Assembly: GCA_002706765.1 (NCBI GenBank)
Contig: PAJV01000076.1
Location: forward strand, 248,001 to 312,000
Source of the DNA: Gimesia sp.
Lineage (GTDB): Bacteria > Planctomycetota > Planctomycetia > Planctomycetales > Planctomycetaceae
DNA: 64,000 nt
Direction of reading: 5' to 3'
A model generated the notes under the pieces. That model made no database searches. It worked only from the letters and a program-made list of their open reading frames with translations, and was not told the DNA's origin. The position numbers and the translations under genes were made by a program. Below, in pieces: positions 3,549 through 16,421 of the stretch (the stretch's first letter is position 1; every line of letters starts with the position of its first letter).

Positions 3549-4496
3549 TTAGAAATCAGTGCTCAGGGTTTCCCGTTTGGCCCGGGTGCTGATTGCCCGG
3601 TAGAGGGCCATGTCCATGTTCTCAGAGAGGAAACGAACGCGTCCGTCACCGAATACGAAGTGGGCACCGCCGGTGTGGTAGCTGCCCGCTGCTTCTTCGC
3701 CGTAGGAGTTAATGGGGTCATTGCCTTCGGCGGCAATCAGGTATTCTGTCATTTCGGTGGGAGGGTTACTGTCAGCTCCGTTTGAGAAACAGTGCTTGCG
3801 GTCACTGCCGCCTCCGCCCAGCATGTCGGAATCTCCACCCGAGTCGATGACTTCACTGACCAGGATGGTGTTGGAGAGACCATCGGTGATGTCACGAAAG
3901 GCAACACTGCTGCTGATATAGAAGACACCGTCAGCGCCCATGCAACCGCCTTTCGCTGCCATGCCGGCGGCATCGGTGATACTGCCACTGATGCAGTTAT
4001 CACCCGAACTGCCGATGAGCGTACCCATATTGCCGTTGTAGTTGGAGGGGGAGTAGCCATTCTTCTGGGCTCCCAGGGTCACATCCGGTTGTGAAGGGCA
4101 CCAGAAGACGGAAATGACGGTCTGCCCGGCCAGCTGCTGTTTGGGATCATTCACCCCGCCGGACTCGGCTCCCATGCCACTGGAATCGGGACCCTGGATT
4201 TGATCATACATGTTTCCCTGATCGAGGTAAGGCAGTATGCTGGCGTGCCAGGTCCAGCCATGACCGTTGTATCGAGAGCCGTTATACCAGACGATACTGC
4301 CCGGCGGCAGGGAGGTGAAGCTGTCGTGGTAGTTGTGTAATGCCAGGCCGATCTGCTTCATATTGTTTTTACAGCTGTTGCGGCGAGCGGCTTCGCGTGC
4401 CTGCTGGACTGCCGGTAACAGCAGTGCAATCAGGATCGCAATAATGGCGATCACTACCAATAATTCGATTAATGTGAATCCTTTTCGATTCTTCAT
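3549..4496 (-). CDS. DUF1559 prepilin-like protein
   Basis: A 315-residue protein with a type III prepilin-type leader ([28 protein letters not shown]) followed by [12 protein letters not shown], the usual DUF1559 N-terminal block. The C-terminal part has the family's [20 protein letters not shown] motif. Such proteins are thought to be processed by a prepilin peptidase and exported; their function in planctomycetes is unknown. It is highly similar to the truncated gene at 1-404, with an almost identical central segment. GGGGGTAAGG precedes the ATG. Confidence 0.95.
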
Positions 4497-5071
4497 CCTT
4501 ACCCCCTTGGAAAATGAGCTTGCAGTAATGTGCAGTGAAATTGAATAAATAAGTTGAGAGGAGATTCTTCCGGGTTCACCGCTGACCGATGAAATGCCTG
4601 CTGGAAAAGTGTTCTTTTTAGAAATCCCAGCGACTTGAGTTTGATGAGAATAAATCTCTTCTGACGGGTGTGCCGGGAGTCTACAGCGGAATTGTGAAGA
4701 TTTTGTGAGGGGTTAATGAGGATATGAAGGGGTAAGCCGATTCTGATGTAACTCTTTAAGGTTAAGAGTTTATGAAGAATTCAGTGTACTGTGCTCACAG
4801 CCAACCAACTCAGGTCTTTTCTGACTTCGGCAGAGGCATCTATTGTAACAGCGGCACTGAAAAAAAAGGGGTTTTTGTAAGATGACCGGGGTTCATTGAA
4901 TCTTAATGAAAGATAAAAGAAACGATCACAAATGCCGGTTTTGATGACTGAAAATCGGTCTTGAGCAGTATCCCCGGCCCGAAAAAATTATGAATTATTT
5001 GAGCAAGGAACAGAAAAAACGAATCCCGTTTGTTCTCCGGGGGTTCTTCCCGACTTGGGGGACGTTTGCAC
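4497..5071. other. Gene-free upstream region of the DUF1559 gene
   Basis: This region holds the promoter of the DUF1559 gene on the minus strand and A/T-rich sequence up to the tandem array. I see no gene, RNA or strong hairpin in it. Confidence 0.4.
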
Positions 5072-11468: not shown

Positions 11469-12296
11469 TTACTGTTTCTGAAACTTCAGTAACTCACCCT
11501 GCTGGGCTGCCTCGATTCTGCGGGCAGCAATTTCGCAGTACTGCTCTGATGCCTCGAAGCCTATGGCATAGCGTCCCTCCAGAACAGAGGCGACCAGTGT
11601 TGTGCCTGATCCGCAGAACGGGTCGAATGCCAGACCACCGACGGGTACACACTGGATCAGACTCTGCATCAGTTGTGTAGGCTTTCCAGTCATGTGGTGT
11701 TTATCAACCTGCTTCACACCGATTGAATAAGAGCCTGCAAACGGTCCCCGATCGGTCAATCGAGGTACAATTCCTTTAGTACCCCAGGGGATGTATTCGC
11801 ACTGGTGCCGAAAGTATCCTTTGTGTGGTGCCCTGGCCCCGCCTCCCTTGTCCCAACTGATCAGCCCTTTATAGCAGAAACCGCCTGCCTGGATTGCATC
11901 GGTCGTGGTGGCCAGCTGCCGCCAGTCTGTGAAAACCAGACAGTATGCCGAGTCTTTACAGGCGTTGAATGCCTGGCTGATCCAAAGTGTGCACCAATAT
12001 TTGAATGATCTTTGATCTCGGAAGTCACCGCCAAAGGAAGGACGGCCGAGGGTGTTACCACTATGGCAATACTTTTTAGAGGGATCGGCTCCTACAGCAC
12101 TGCCTGCTGCACCTGAGCAATACGGAGGATCTGTGATCAAGGCATCAATTACATTAGCTGGTAGATTGCTGCTTAGTTCAAGTGTATCACCTTGATAAAT
12201 GGCAATCCCTTTTGATTCAAAAAACGGTTTACCCAGTTTTTTCCTGGCTGCTTCATATTGTCGGTTCTTTCTGCGGGTCATTTTTTTTCGAGCCAT
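11469..12296 (-). CDS. Site-specific DNA-methyltransferase (N6-adenine type)
   Basis: A 275-residue protein. The catalytic motif IV DPPY is at about residues 56-59, and the S-adenosylmethionine-binding motif FDPFCGSG is near the C-terminus at about 224-231. This is the order of the beta-type N6_N4_Mtase family. DPPY favours adenine N6 methylation. The N-terminus is basic (MARKKMTRRKNR). No endonuclease partner is adjacent, so it is an orphan or phage-type enzyme; the terminase-like gene nearby on the same strand supports a prophage origin. GGAGA precedes the ATG. Confidence 0.88.
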   Translation of the reverse strand: MARKKMTRRKNRQYEAARKKLGKPFFESKGIAIYQGDTLELSSNLPANVIDALITDPPYCSGAAGSAVGADPSKKYCHSGNTLGRPSFGGDFRDQRSFKYWCTLWISQAFNACKDSAYCLVFTDWRQLATTTDAIQAGGFCYKGLISWDKGGGARAPHKGYFRHQCEYIPWGTKGIVPRLTDRGPFAGSYSIGVKQVDKHHMTGKPTQLMQSLIQCVPVGGLAFDPFCGSGTTLVASVLEGRYAIGFEASEQYCEIAARRIEAAQQGELLKFQKQ

Positions 12297-12506: not shown

Positions 12507-12533
12507 CACTGTTGGGCAAGCCAACAGTGGCAC
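12507..12533. repeat. Palindromic repeat, family C copy 2 (inverted)
   Basis: CACTGTTGG and CCAACAGTG form a 9-bp stem with loop GCAAG, followed by GCAC. Read on the minus strand it matches copy 1 except for a C-G to T-A change on both sides of the stem and one loop base, so the pairing is preserved. Confidence 0.75.
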
Positions 12534-13628: not shown

Positions 13629-13745
13629 TCAGTCCTGGAGGCGAATCGTGACGCTGGCGGCGTGGGCGGTGAGGCCTTCCTTTTCGGCGAGCAGCGTGAT
13701 GCCGGGCGCGTCGTTTTTGAGTCCCTGCTGGTTGTAGTAGATGAC
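13629..13745 (-). pseudogene. hisD: Detached C-terminal 38 codons of hisD, in frame after an amber codon
   Basis: Directly after the TAG at 13748-13746 the same frame continues for 38 codons (VIYYNQQGLKNDAPG at the start, AEKEGLTAHAASVTIRLQD at the end) to a TGA at 13631-13629. The EGLTAH segment is the expected C-terminus of histidinol dehydrogenase, carrying the His equivalent to E. coli His419, a zinc ligand. The codons are intact, so the interruption is a single base change (or sequencing error), or the amber codon is read through. Confidence 0.85.
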
Positions 13746-15005
13746 CTAGGAACGTTTGAGGAAGTCAATCGCACACAGGCCGTTGGCGAAGCGGGCGGTG
13801 CCTCCGGTGGGGAGGACGTGCGACGGGCCGGCGTAGTAGTCGCCTGTCGCGACCGGTGTGTAATGTCCCATGAAGATCGCGCCGGCGTTCTGGATTTTGG
13901 CGAGTTGCTGATCGGGGTTGGCGGTCGAGATGTGCAGGTGCTCGGGAGCCAGCAGATCGGTATAGCGGGCAGCTTCGTCTTCGTCGCGGGCGAGAATCAA
14001 CGCGCCATAGTCGAGCAGACTCTGGCGGGCGAGATCGCCGCGCGGGAGCTCGTTGAGCTGACTGATGAGTGCTTCGCGGACGGCTTCGATCAGCGGGGCA
14101 TGCCAGGTGATGAGGACGCCGGAACCGGGGCTGTGTTCGGCCTGCGAGATCAGATCGCTGGCGATGAACGCGGGGTTCGCGGTTTCGTCGGCGAGCACGA
14201 TGACTTCACTGGGGCCGGCGATGCTGTCGATGTCGACTTCGCCGAAGACGTGACGTTTGGCAAGCGCGACGAACAGGTTACCGGGGCCGACAATTTTGTC
14301 GACGCGTTCAATGCCTTCGACGCCATACGCGAGGGCCGCAACGGCCTGGGCACCGCCGACACGGTAGATTTCGGTGATGCCGAGCTCCTGGCAGGCGGCG
14401 AGGATGTCGGTGTTGTAACCGCCGAAGTCGGTGGGCGGGACGACGACGACGATCTCTTTGACACCGGCGGTCTGTGCGGGGATCGCGGTCATCAGCAGTG
14501 TGGACGGATACGCGGCCGCGCCTCCGGGAATGCAGACGCCGACCCGTTTCAAAGGGAGATACCGCTGGCGAAGTTCGACGCGGGACTCCCCTGCTTCGCG
14601 GAGGACTTTGACGTCGTCGGGCAGCAGAGCCGACTGAAACTCGATGATGTTCTCGCGGATGCGACGCAGCGTGGCGAGGTACTCGGGATCGGCTTTGGCG
14701 TGAGCTTCTTTGAGTTCCTCAGCCGAGACGCGCATGGTCTCGGGGGTGAGCTGCTTGCGGTCGAGCTTTTCCGAGTAATCGAGGAGCGCGGCGAGACCTT
14801 TGTCACGGACATCGTTGCAGATGCGTTCGACGACTTCCTGCGGCGAGAGGGGTGCGCCGAAGAGTTCGATCGTACGTTGTCTGCCGGCTTCGGAGACGAC
14901 ATTGCCGCGCGGGCTGAGCTTTTCGCGGAGTTCGCTGAAGAGCGCGGTGGCGTCGTCGCGGGTGCAGTCGATGGTGGTGATGTCGAGTTCGCTGTGCTGT
15001 GTCAT
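13746..15005 (-). CDS. hisD: Histidinol dehydrogenase, truncated by an in-frame TAG
   Basis: The enzyme for the last two steps of histidine synthesis (L-histidinol to L-histidine with NAD). In 419 residues it contains QAEHSPGS (Gln and His zinc ligands), PEHLHI (catalytic Glu-His) and TGDYYAGPSHVLPT (Asp ligand). The frame stops after DFLKRS; relatives usually continue KRSS or KRTS, so TAG probably replaces a Ser codon such as TCG. The remaining 38 codons follow in frame and hold the fourth zinc ligand. As annotated the product should be inactive unless the codon is suppressed. It lies 18 bases downstream of glyA, so the two are probably co-transcribed. Confidence 0.93.
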   Translation of the reverse strand: MTQHSELDITTIDCTRDDATALFSELREKLSPRGNVVSEAGRQRTIELFGAPLSPQEVVERICNDVRDKGLAALLDYSEKLDRKQLTPETMRVSAEELKEAHAKADPEYLATLRRIRENIIEFQSALLPDDVKVLREAGESRVELRQRYLPLKRVGVCIPGGAAAYPSTLLMTAIPAQTAGVKEIVVVVPPTDFGGYNTDILAACQELGITEIYRVGGAQAVAALAYGVEGIERVDKIVGPGNLFVALAKRHVFGEVDIDSIAGPSEVIVLADETANPAFIASDLISQAEHSPGSGVLITWHAPLIEAVREALISQLNELPRGDLARQSLLDYGALILARDEDEAARYTDLLAPEHLHISTANPDQQLAKIQNAGAIFMGHYTPVATGDYYAGPSHVLPTGGTARFANGLCAIDFLKRS

Positions 15006-15023: not shown

Positions 15024-16265
15024 TTACGCGATGCCGGGCACGGGATAGCTCTGTGCGAATTCCGCGATTTCCCCTTTGACGGTTTCGATGTTGGCTTCGT
15101 CTTCGGGAGCACCGAGGACTTTGAGGATCCAGGCACCGACCTTTTTCATTTCGTCTTCTTTCATGCCCCGGGTGGTGAGGGCGGCGGTACCGATGCGGAT
15201 GCCGCTGGGATCGAGCGGTTTGCGCTGATCGTAGGGGATCATGTTTTTGTTGACGGTGATGCCGGCCTTGTCGAGTGCTTCTTCAGCGATTTTGCCGGAG
15301 AGATCAATCGCGGTGACATCGCAGAGCATGAGGTGGTTGTCGGTTCCGCCGGATGCGAGTTTGATGCCGCCGGCCATCAGGGTATCGGCGAGTGTTCTCG
15401 CATTGGCGACGATCTGTCGGGCGTAGGCTTTGAAGTCTTCGGTGGCAGCTTCCTGGAAGCAGATGGCTTTGCCGGCGATGACGTGTTCGAGTGGGCCGCC
15501 CTGGATGCCGGGGAATACTTCGCGGTTGAGATCTTTGGCGTATTTCTTTTTCATGAGGACGAAGCCGGACCGGGGACCACGCAGTGTTTTGTGAGTGGTG
15601 GAAGTGACGAAGTCGGCGACTTCGACGGGGTTGTTGTGCACGCCGCCCGCGACGAGGCCGGAATAGTGGGCCATATCGACCATGAGGACCGCACCGACTT
15701 CGGCTGCGATTTCGGCGAATTTGGGGTGATCGATTTCACGGGGGTAAGCGGAGGCCCCGGCGATGATCATTTTGGGTTTGTGTTCGCGGGCGAGTTTCGC
15801 GACCTGGTCGTAGTCGATCTGGTGGTTGTCTTCACGGACGCCGTAGGGCACGGGATTGTAGAGGGTTCCCGAGAAGTTCAATTTCATGCCGTGAGTGAGG
15901 TGACCGCCGTGCGCGAGGTCCATGGCGAGGAAGGTGTCGCCTGGCTTTAACACGGTGAAGTAGACGGACATGTTGGCCTGTGAGCCGGAGTGAGGCTGGA
16001 CGTTGGCGTATTCGGCTCCGAAGAGGCTGCAGGCGCGATCGCGGGCGAGGTTCTCGACGACGTCGACGTATTCGCATCCGCCGTAATAGCGACGTCCGGG
16101 CAGGCCTTCGGCGTATTTGTTCGTGAGGATCGAGCCGGCCGCTTCCATAATGGCGGCGCTGGTGTAATTTTCAGAGGCAATCAGCTCCAGGCCATTCTTC
16201 TGGCGCTGTGCTTCAGACTGAATACATTTCCAGATTTCCGGATCACACGACTCGAGCACGGACAT
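15024..16265 (-). CDS. glyA: Serine hydroxymethyltransferase
   Basis: Converts serine and tetrahydrofolate to glycine and 5,10-methylenetetrahydrofolate, with pyridoxal phosphate. About 413 residues from the ATG at 16265; GGGAG lies about 10 bases upstream, and the 10-residue extension to 16295 is rejected. Typical segments are [31 protein letters not shown], then the PLP-lysine region [12 protein letters not shown], and [13 protein letters not shown]. It is the first gene of a probable glyA-hisD unit and is divergent from the BRCT gene. Confidence 0.97.
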
Positions 16266-16421
16266 TCCAATCAACTCCCATGGATATATGGTCAAATTCG
16301 GGGGTACAAACGGTACCTTCAGCAGGAAAAAACATATTTTGCTCCCTTATAATGAAGGATTGCCCTGAAAGCTACCCAACGGATTCCCGTATCATTATCC
16401 TCGGAGAAAGTTTACTGCTGT

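Follow-up and report, generated by a model that had tools for sequence, protein, structure and literature searches.

A TAG codon inside the only hisD of a Gimesia genome: probably a very recent nonsense mutation predicting histidine auxotrophy

The hisD gene in the 64,000-nucleotide stretch of Gimesia sp. contig PAJV01000076.1 that was analysed here (the window) occupies positions 13629-15005 of the minus strand and is interrupted in frame by a TAG (13746-13748) at the 420th of its 458 codons. Judging from sequence comparison, this TAG is probably a genuine, very recent and ordinary nonsense mutation in the sole hisD of the organism, and histidine auxotrophy would be predicted. The features of the region are as follows.

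13749..15005, minus strand: hisD codons 1-419, the histidinol dehydrogenase domains ahead of the stop (PF00815, 12-374 of 411)
13746..13748, minus strand: in-frame TAG, codon 420 of the ancestral 458-codon frame (Ser in 109/109 relative loci)
13632..13745, minus strand: 38 sense codons past the stop, encoding domain IV including the EGLTAH Glu and His (match to the tail of PF00815; domain assigned by the Glu/His spacing in the available text of PMC5585171)
13629..13631, minus strand: TGA terminator, where the 458-residue HisD of the nearest relative (L005) ends
15024..16295, minus strand: glyA, serine hydroxymethyltransferase (PF00464), directly upstream of hisD on the same strand

Read from 15005 on the minus strand, the hisD frame runs for 419 codons ending in DFLKRS, meets the TAG, and then keeps 38 sense codons (VIYYNQQG...EGLTAHAASVTIRLQD) up to the TGA. 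The first-pass annotation had placed the TAG after DFLKRS with 38 in-frame residues beyond it, and its coordinates were exact when the frame was re-read. The front part matched the Pfam profile PF00815 across the catalytic domains (profile positions 12-374, E 1.7e-135, 452.7 bits), and the 38-residue tail alone matched positions 376-411 of 411 (E 8.9e-6) with 25.4 bits, slightly under the 27-bit cut-off. Since the tail matches the end of PF00815, it is not a chance open frame, and the single profile position absent between the two matches corresponds to the stop. The complete C-terminal domain with the zinc-ligand His is thus not produced under the standard code, being encoded only past the stop. 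Eighteen bases lie between glyA and the start of hisD, and the two genes are probably co-transcribed.

Several other features of the window were recorded. Downstream of hisD, at 11469-12296, is a gene for a DNA methylase (PF01555); matching the proteins of the two nearest relatives to that stretch gave no intact counterpart of it, and the window between 11.4 and 13.0 kb showed only 83% DNA identity to relative G014 in part. A palindrome-like short motif, GGCAAGCCAACAGTGGCAC, was found downstream of hisD at 12512-12533, and a similar translated string, TVGQAD, occurs near the front of an insert-bearing gene in a sulfatase region of the same genome (C76, near 415163-417115). No repeat family was shown for the GGCAAGCCAACAGTGGCAC motif, exact counts on 464 kb being low (2). 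One gene occurs in two similar copies, at 3-458 (truncated by the window start) and at 3552-4508; the relatives also have two.

His419 of E. coli HisD is taken here to be a zinc ligand. The His of EGLTAH falls on this residue, as the first-pass annotation had claimed, provided that the phmmer alignment to 1k75, which pairs query 49-456 with chain 22-427, has no gap towards its end. According to the available text of PMC5585171, domain IV of Medicago HDH (residues 438-478) is V-shaped and subunit-swapped and completes the active site of the partner, with His460* binding zinc and Glu455* the substrate; this Glu and His are five positions apart, as in EGLTAH. Likewise, in the available text of PMC11382572, one zinc His of DHPS-dehydrogenase is supplied by the second chain. 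On the same partial Medicago account, and with an ungapped alignment, the stop lies approximately six residues ahead of domain IV, so that the entire domain would be lost. The proposal that the stop removes the last zinc-ligand region agrees with this, and loss of HisD activity from the truncation is likely by analogy with the Medicago enzyme as far as PMC5585171 describes it. With the ordinary code, translation would stop at codon 420 and give a 419-residue protein without domain IV, the part that in solved histidinol dehydrogenases is swapped into the partner subunit, bringing the zinc-ligand His and the substrate-binding Glu to its active site. Because domain IV would be missing, the short HisD should be inactive and the strain should be a histidine auxotroph, which would feed on supplied histidine.

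The auxotrophy had been predicted on the proviso that no other copy of hisD exists, and a search for a second hisD had been proposed. A profile search of the whole assembly (7,896,062 bases in 78 contigs; completeness 100, contamination 1.95) returned one PF00815 match, with one TAG inside, and no second hisD in the 7.9 Mb. The stop sits at about base 261,700 of its 604,072-base contig, far from either end. The hisA/hisF family (5 matches), hisG (1), and hisB (1) were all present without internal stops.

We compared codon 420 with that of relatives, as the first-pass annotation had suggested. A PF00815 search of 40 genomes, the present one included, gave 40 matches in 37 genomes; 39 of the 40 had no internal stop, the sole exception being our own, and the three genomes lacking a match have completeness values of 76, 74 and 98, the first two being incomplete. 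We then aligned 110 loci, namely the present locus, 29 further ones from the 40-genome search, and 80 from a second search (the best 80 of 112 relatives); approximately six locus pairs look like one genome retrieved by both searches, so that independent genomes number closer to 103. All 109 relative loci, including the best 80 of 112 relatives, encode Ser at codon 420 (TCG 39, AGC 33, TCC 20, TCA 13, TCT 2, and AGT 2), and none has a stop. The usual residue is accordingly Ser, not "Ser or Thr" as first stated. The claim that one base change explains the TAG was borne out, because TCG, which differs from TAG at a single base, is the codon in the two nearest relatives (protein identity 98.9% and 98.3%). 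A direct pattern search over 17 genomes of the genus found the site in nine, with TAG in the present genome and TCG in the other eight. As in a nonsense allele or young pseudogene, the premature stop is absent from orthologues, and the genome has no second intact copy detectable with PF00815.

The remainder of the gene bears on the age of the change. Compared with the nearest relative (L005; 94.5% DNA identity), hisD differs in its head at 68 synonymous and 3 non-synonymous codons and in its tail at 2 and 1; against the second nearest relative, the values are 63 and 6 in the head and 6 and 1 in the tail. The stop is the only residue private to this HisD among 15 sequences of the genus. The absence of any other private residue indicates that the change is very recent, and the earlier claim of an undamaged tail and a recent change fits these counts. 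Sequence comparison points to selection on hisD until very recently, or still, the 38-codon tail being too short to distinguish the two. An old pseudogene was rejected because no further private residue is present, and L71, considered as a second sign of relaxed constraint, was dropped since Leu also occurs in five other members of the genus.

A stop that is the sole private residue in an otherwise perfectly kept HisD fits a single wrong base in the deposited assembly as well as it fits a mutation. In that case the organism would have an ordinary intact hisD, a possibility that we hold to be real but somewhat doubtful. The intact hisG, hisB, and hisA/hisF family and the fact that hisD is selected in every genus member where it was found speak against a nonsense mutation, and the former favors a base error; the single hisD, the Ser in all relatives, and the stop as sole private residue speak for a mutation. 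We evaluated the quality of the assembly by comparing 464 kb of the contig with 480 kb stretches of two relatives (G014 and G008). Of 264 genes intact in both relatives, 250 were tested in the present genome and 14 were dropped for want of a good match, which means that heavily broken genes may be missing from the count. In-frame stops were flagged in 11 of the 250 genes and frameshift-like breaks in none, the latter arguing against a base error. In eight of the flagged genes the stop sat near the start (within codons 5 to 21 or, in one gene, in an insert close to the front), and in two it fell among the final seven codons; the eleventh was hisD, alone among the 250 in having its stop inside a conserved internal region. 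The ten end-region stops probably reflect differences in start or end, and one insert case was examined singly. The same screen flagged 8/247 genes in G014 and 5/245 in G008, in every case with the stop among the first 34 or the last 5 codons. After filtering, hisD was the sole flagged gene in the window among the 33 (of 36) with a window match. Across the genome, an internal stop occurred in 1 of 87 sulfatase matches (TAA) and in none of 46 GFO/IDH matches, which also argues against a base error. These screens indicate a clean assembly and reduce, without abolishing, the probability that one base is wrong.

The change in hisD belongs to the C-to-A class. Among private non-synonymous changes in 29 genes of the window, this class made up 38/230 in the present genome versus 15/137 and 14/149 in the two relatives. 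On the 464 kb the share was 0.134 versus 0.118 and 0.114 (285/2132 versus 294/2537 in the two relatives together; Fisher p 0.068). This slight rise favors a base error; however, it is not significant, and no excess was observed at synonymous sites (0.058 versus 0.078 and 0.060). Systematic C-to-A damage was therefore set aside, the hint from the window having shrunk to p 0.068 on the 464 kb, which is no firm evidence of damage.

Through its TAG, hisD gains a CCTAGG. The tetranucleotide CTAG is scarce here, with 17 occurrences in the window versus 29 expected from trinucleotides and 71 versus 197 expected on the 464 kb, and it is likewise scarce in the relatives (110 versus 258 and 80 versus 222 expected).

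If the base is correct, the TAG might still be read through, by near-cognate decoding or by an undetected suppressor tRNA, often enough to supply useful full-length HisD, and the strain would then be prototrophic, its hisD being a leaky allele. In favor of this, the tail has stayed intact and in frame, and a small amount of HisD activity might be enough. Basal misreading of stop codons occurs in any bacterium. However, no tRNA with a CTA anticodon was detected at the 58 tRNA places of the genome (ARAGORN, 30 loci and 16 regions); 150 of 313 first-look candidates were scored, so that a very odd, weak, or unusual tRNA could be missed. A direct pattern for a CTA anticodon plus T arm matched 19 loci in the genome, none of them a CTA tRNA, while the reversed control gave 10 matches. 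The amber-suppressor tRNA that the first-pass annotation had thought worth seeking was accordingly not found. Two dense same-strand tRNA arrays were seen in the same survey, at C58:216486-217820 (L151; 11 or 12 genes) and C71:53455-54130 (L156; 5 genes) by ARAGORN. Several of their genes score low in covariance (30-58 bits) and carry anticodons duplicating those of single-copy tRNAs, and the arrays were possibly brought by mobile elements.

The decoding machinery and the RNA were also inspected. Two release-factor genes, 360 and 378 codons long, are full-length and free of internal stops. A length of approximately 360 codons is usual for RF1, and one of the two is presumably RF1. Among 232 genes with a readable end on the 464 kb around hisD, TAG terminates 38, TGA 101, and TAA 93. 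The RNA past the stop showed no special fold: for 13760-13629 the z value was +1.42, with 190 of 200 shuffles at least as good. Together with the absence of the stop from every relative, the intact release-factor genes, the everyday use of TAG as a terminator, and the ordinary fold all weigh against a leaky hisD, which we consider very unlikely. The functional readthrough that had been suggested is thus not supported. It is highly improbable that this UAG is decoded as an amino acid at a useful rate with no dedicated suppressor tRNA, which would turn hisD into a naturally leaky amber allele in a prototroph. Genome-wide amber recoding was rejected, because TAG ends 38/232 genes on the 464 kb and both release-factor genes are undamaged.

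Hardly any credence is due to the idea that the TAG is programmed or recoded, or that HisD is split and its last domain translated as a peptide of its own. The sole support for this idea comes from solved structures, in which the tail forms a distinct domain (PMC5585171). However, the 38 codons after the stop contain no in-frame ATG, GTG, or TTG, on which ground the separate C-terminal peptide was rejected, TAG is an ordinary terminator in this genome, and the stop is not conserved. Leaky readthrough and a programmed or split protein both lack positive evidence. The stop in hisD is best read as involving no new way of reading the genetic code. We therefore return to an ordinary nonsense mutation as the probable explanation; the rest of the gene would be undecayed because the change is young.

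If the mutation is real, it would represent strain-level amino-acid auxotrophy in a planctomycete, useful for the choice of culture media, and a caution against inferring complete pathways from the presence of genes. Should it be an error, there is one base to check in a reference assembly. Either way, the understanding of HisD and of the genetic code is unchanged. In one open-access library, we found no report joining nonsense suppressor, hisD, and amber and none on this strain, and the available main text of PMC7716864 names neither histidine nor auxotrophy.

Among known systems, the hisD of the window resembles amber alleles of biosynthetic genes that give auxotrophy, in that a sense codon has become TAG in an otherwise intact single-copy gene with loss of the last domain; it differs in being known from assembled sequence alone. 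Compared with HisD proteins of the PF00815 family, such as those of E. coli (1k75/1kae) and Medicago (HDH, 5vlb), its front 419 codons match up to domain IV and its tail encodes a match to domain IV, whereas its frame is cut ahead of that domain. With stop-codon readthrough and amber recoding it shares an in-frame stop followed by a conserved coding stretch. Unlike these systems, it has no detected UAG-reading suppressor tRNA, no recoding signal such as a downstream RNA structure, and no conserved stop, and TAG terminates genes elsewhere in the genome.
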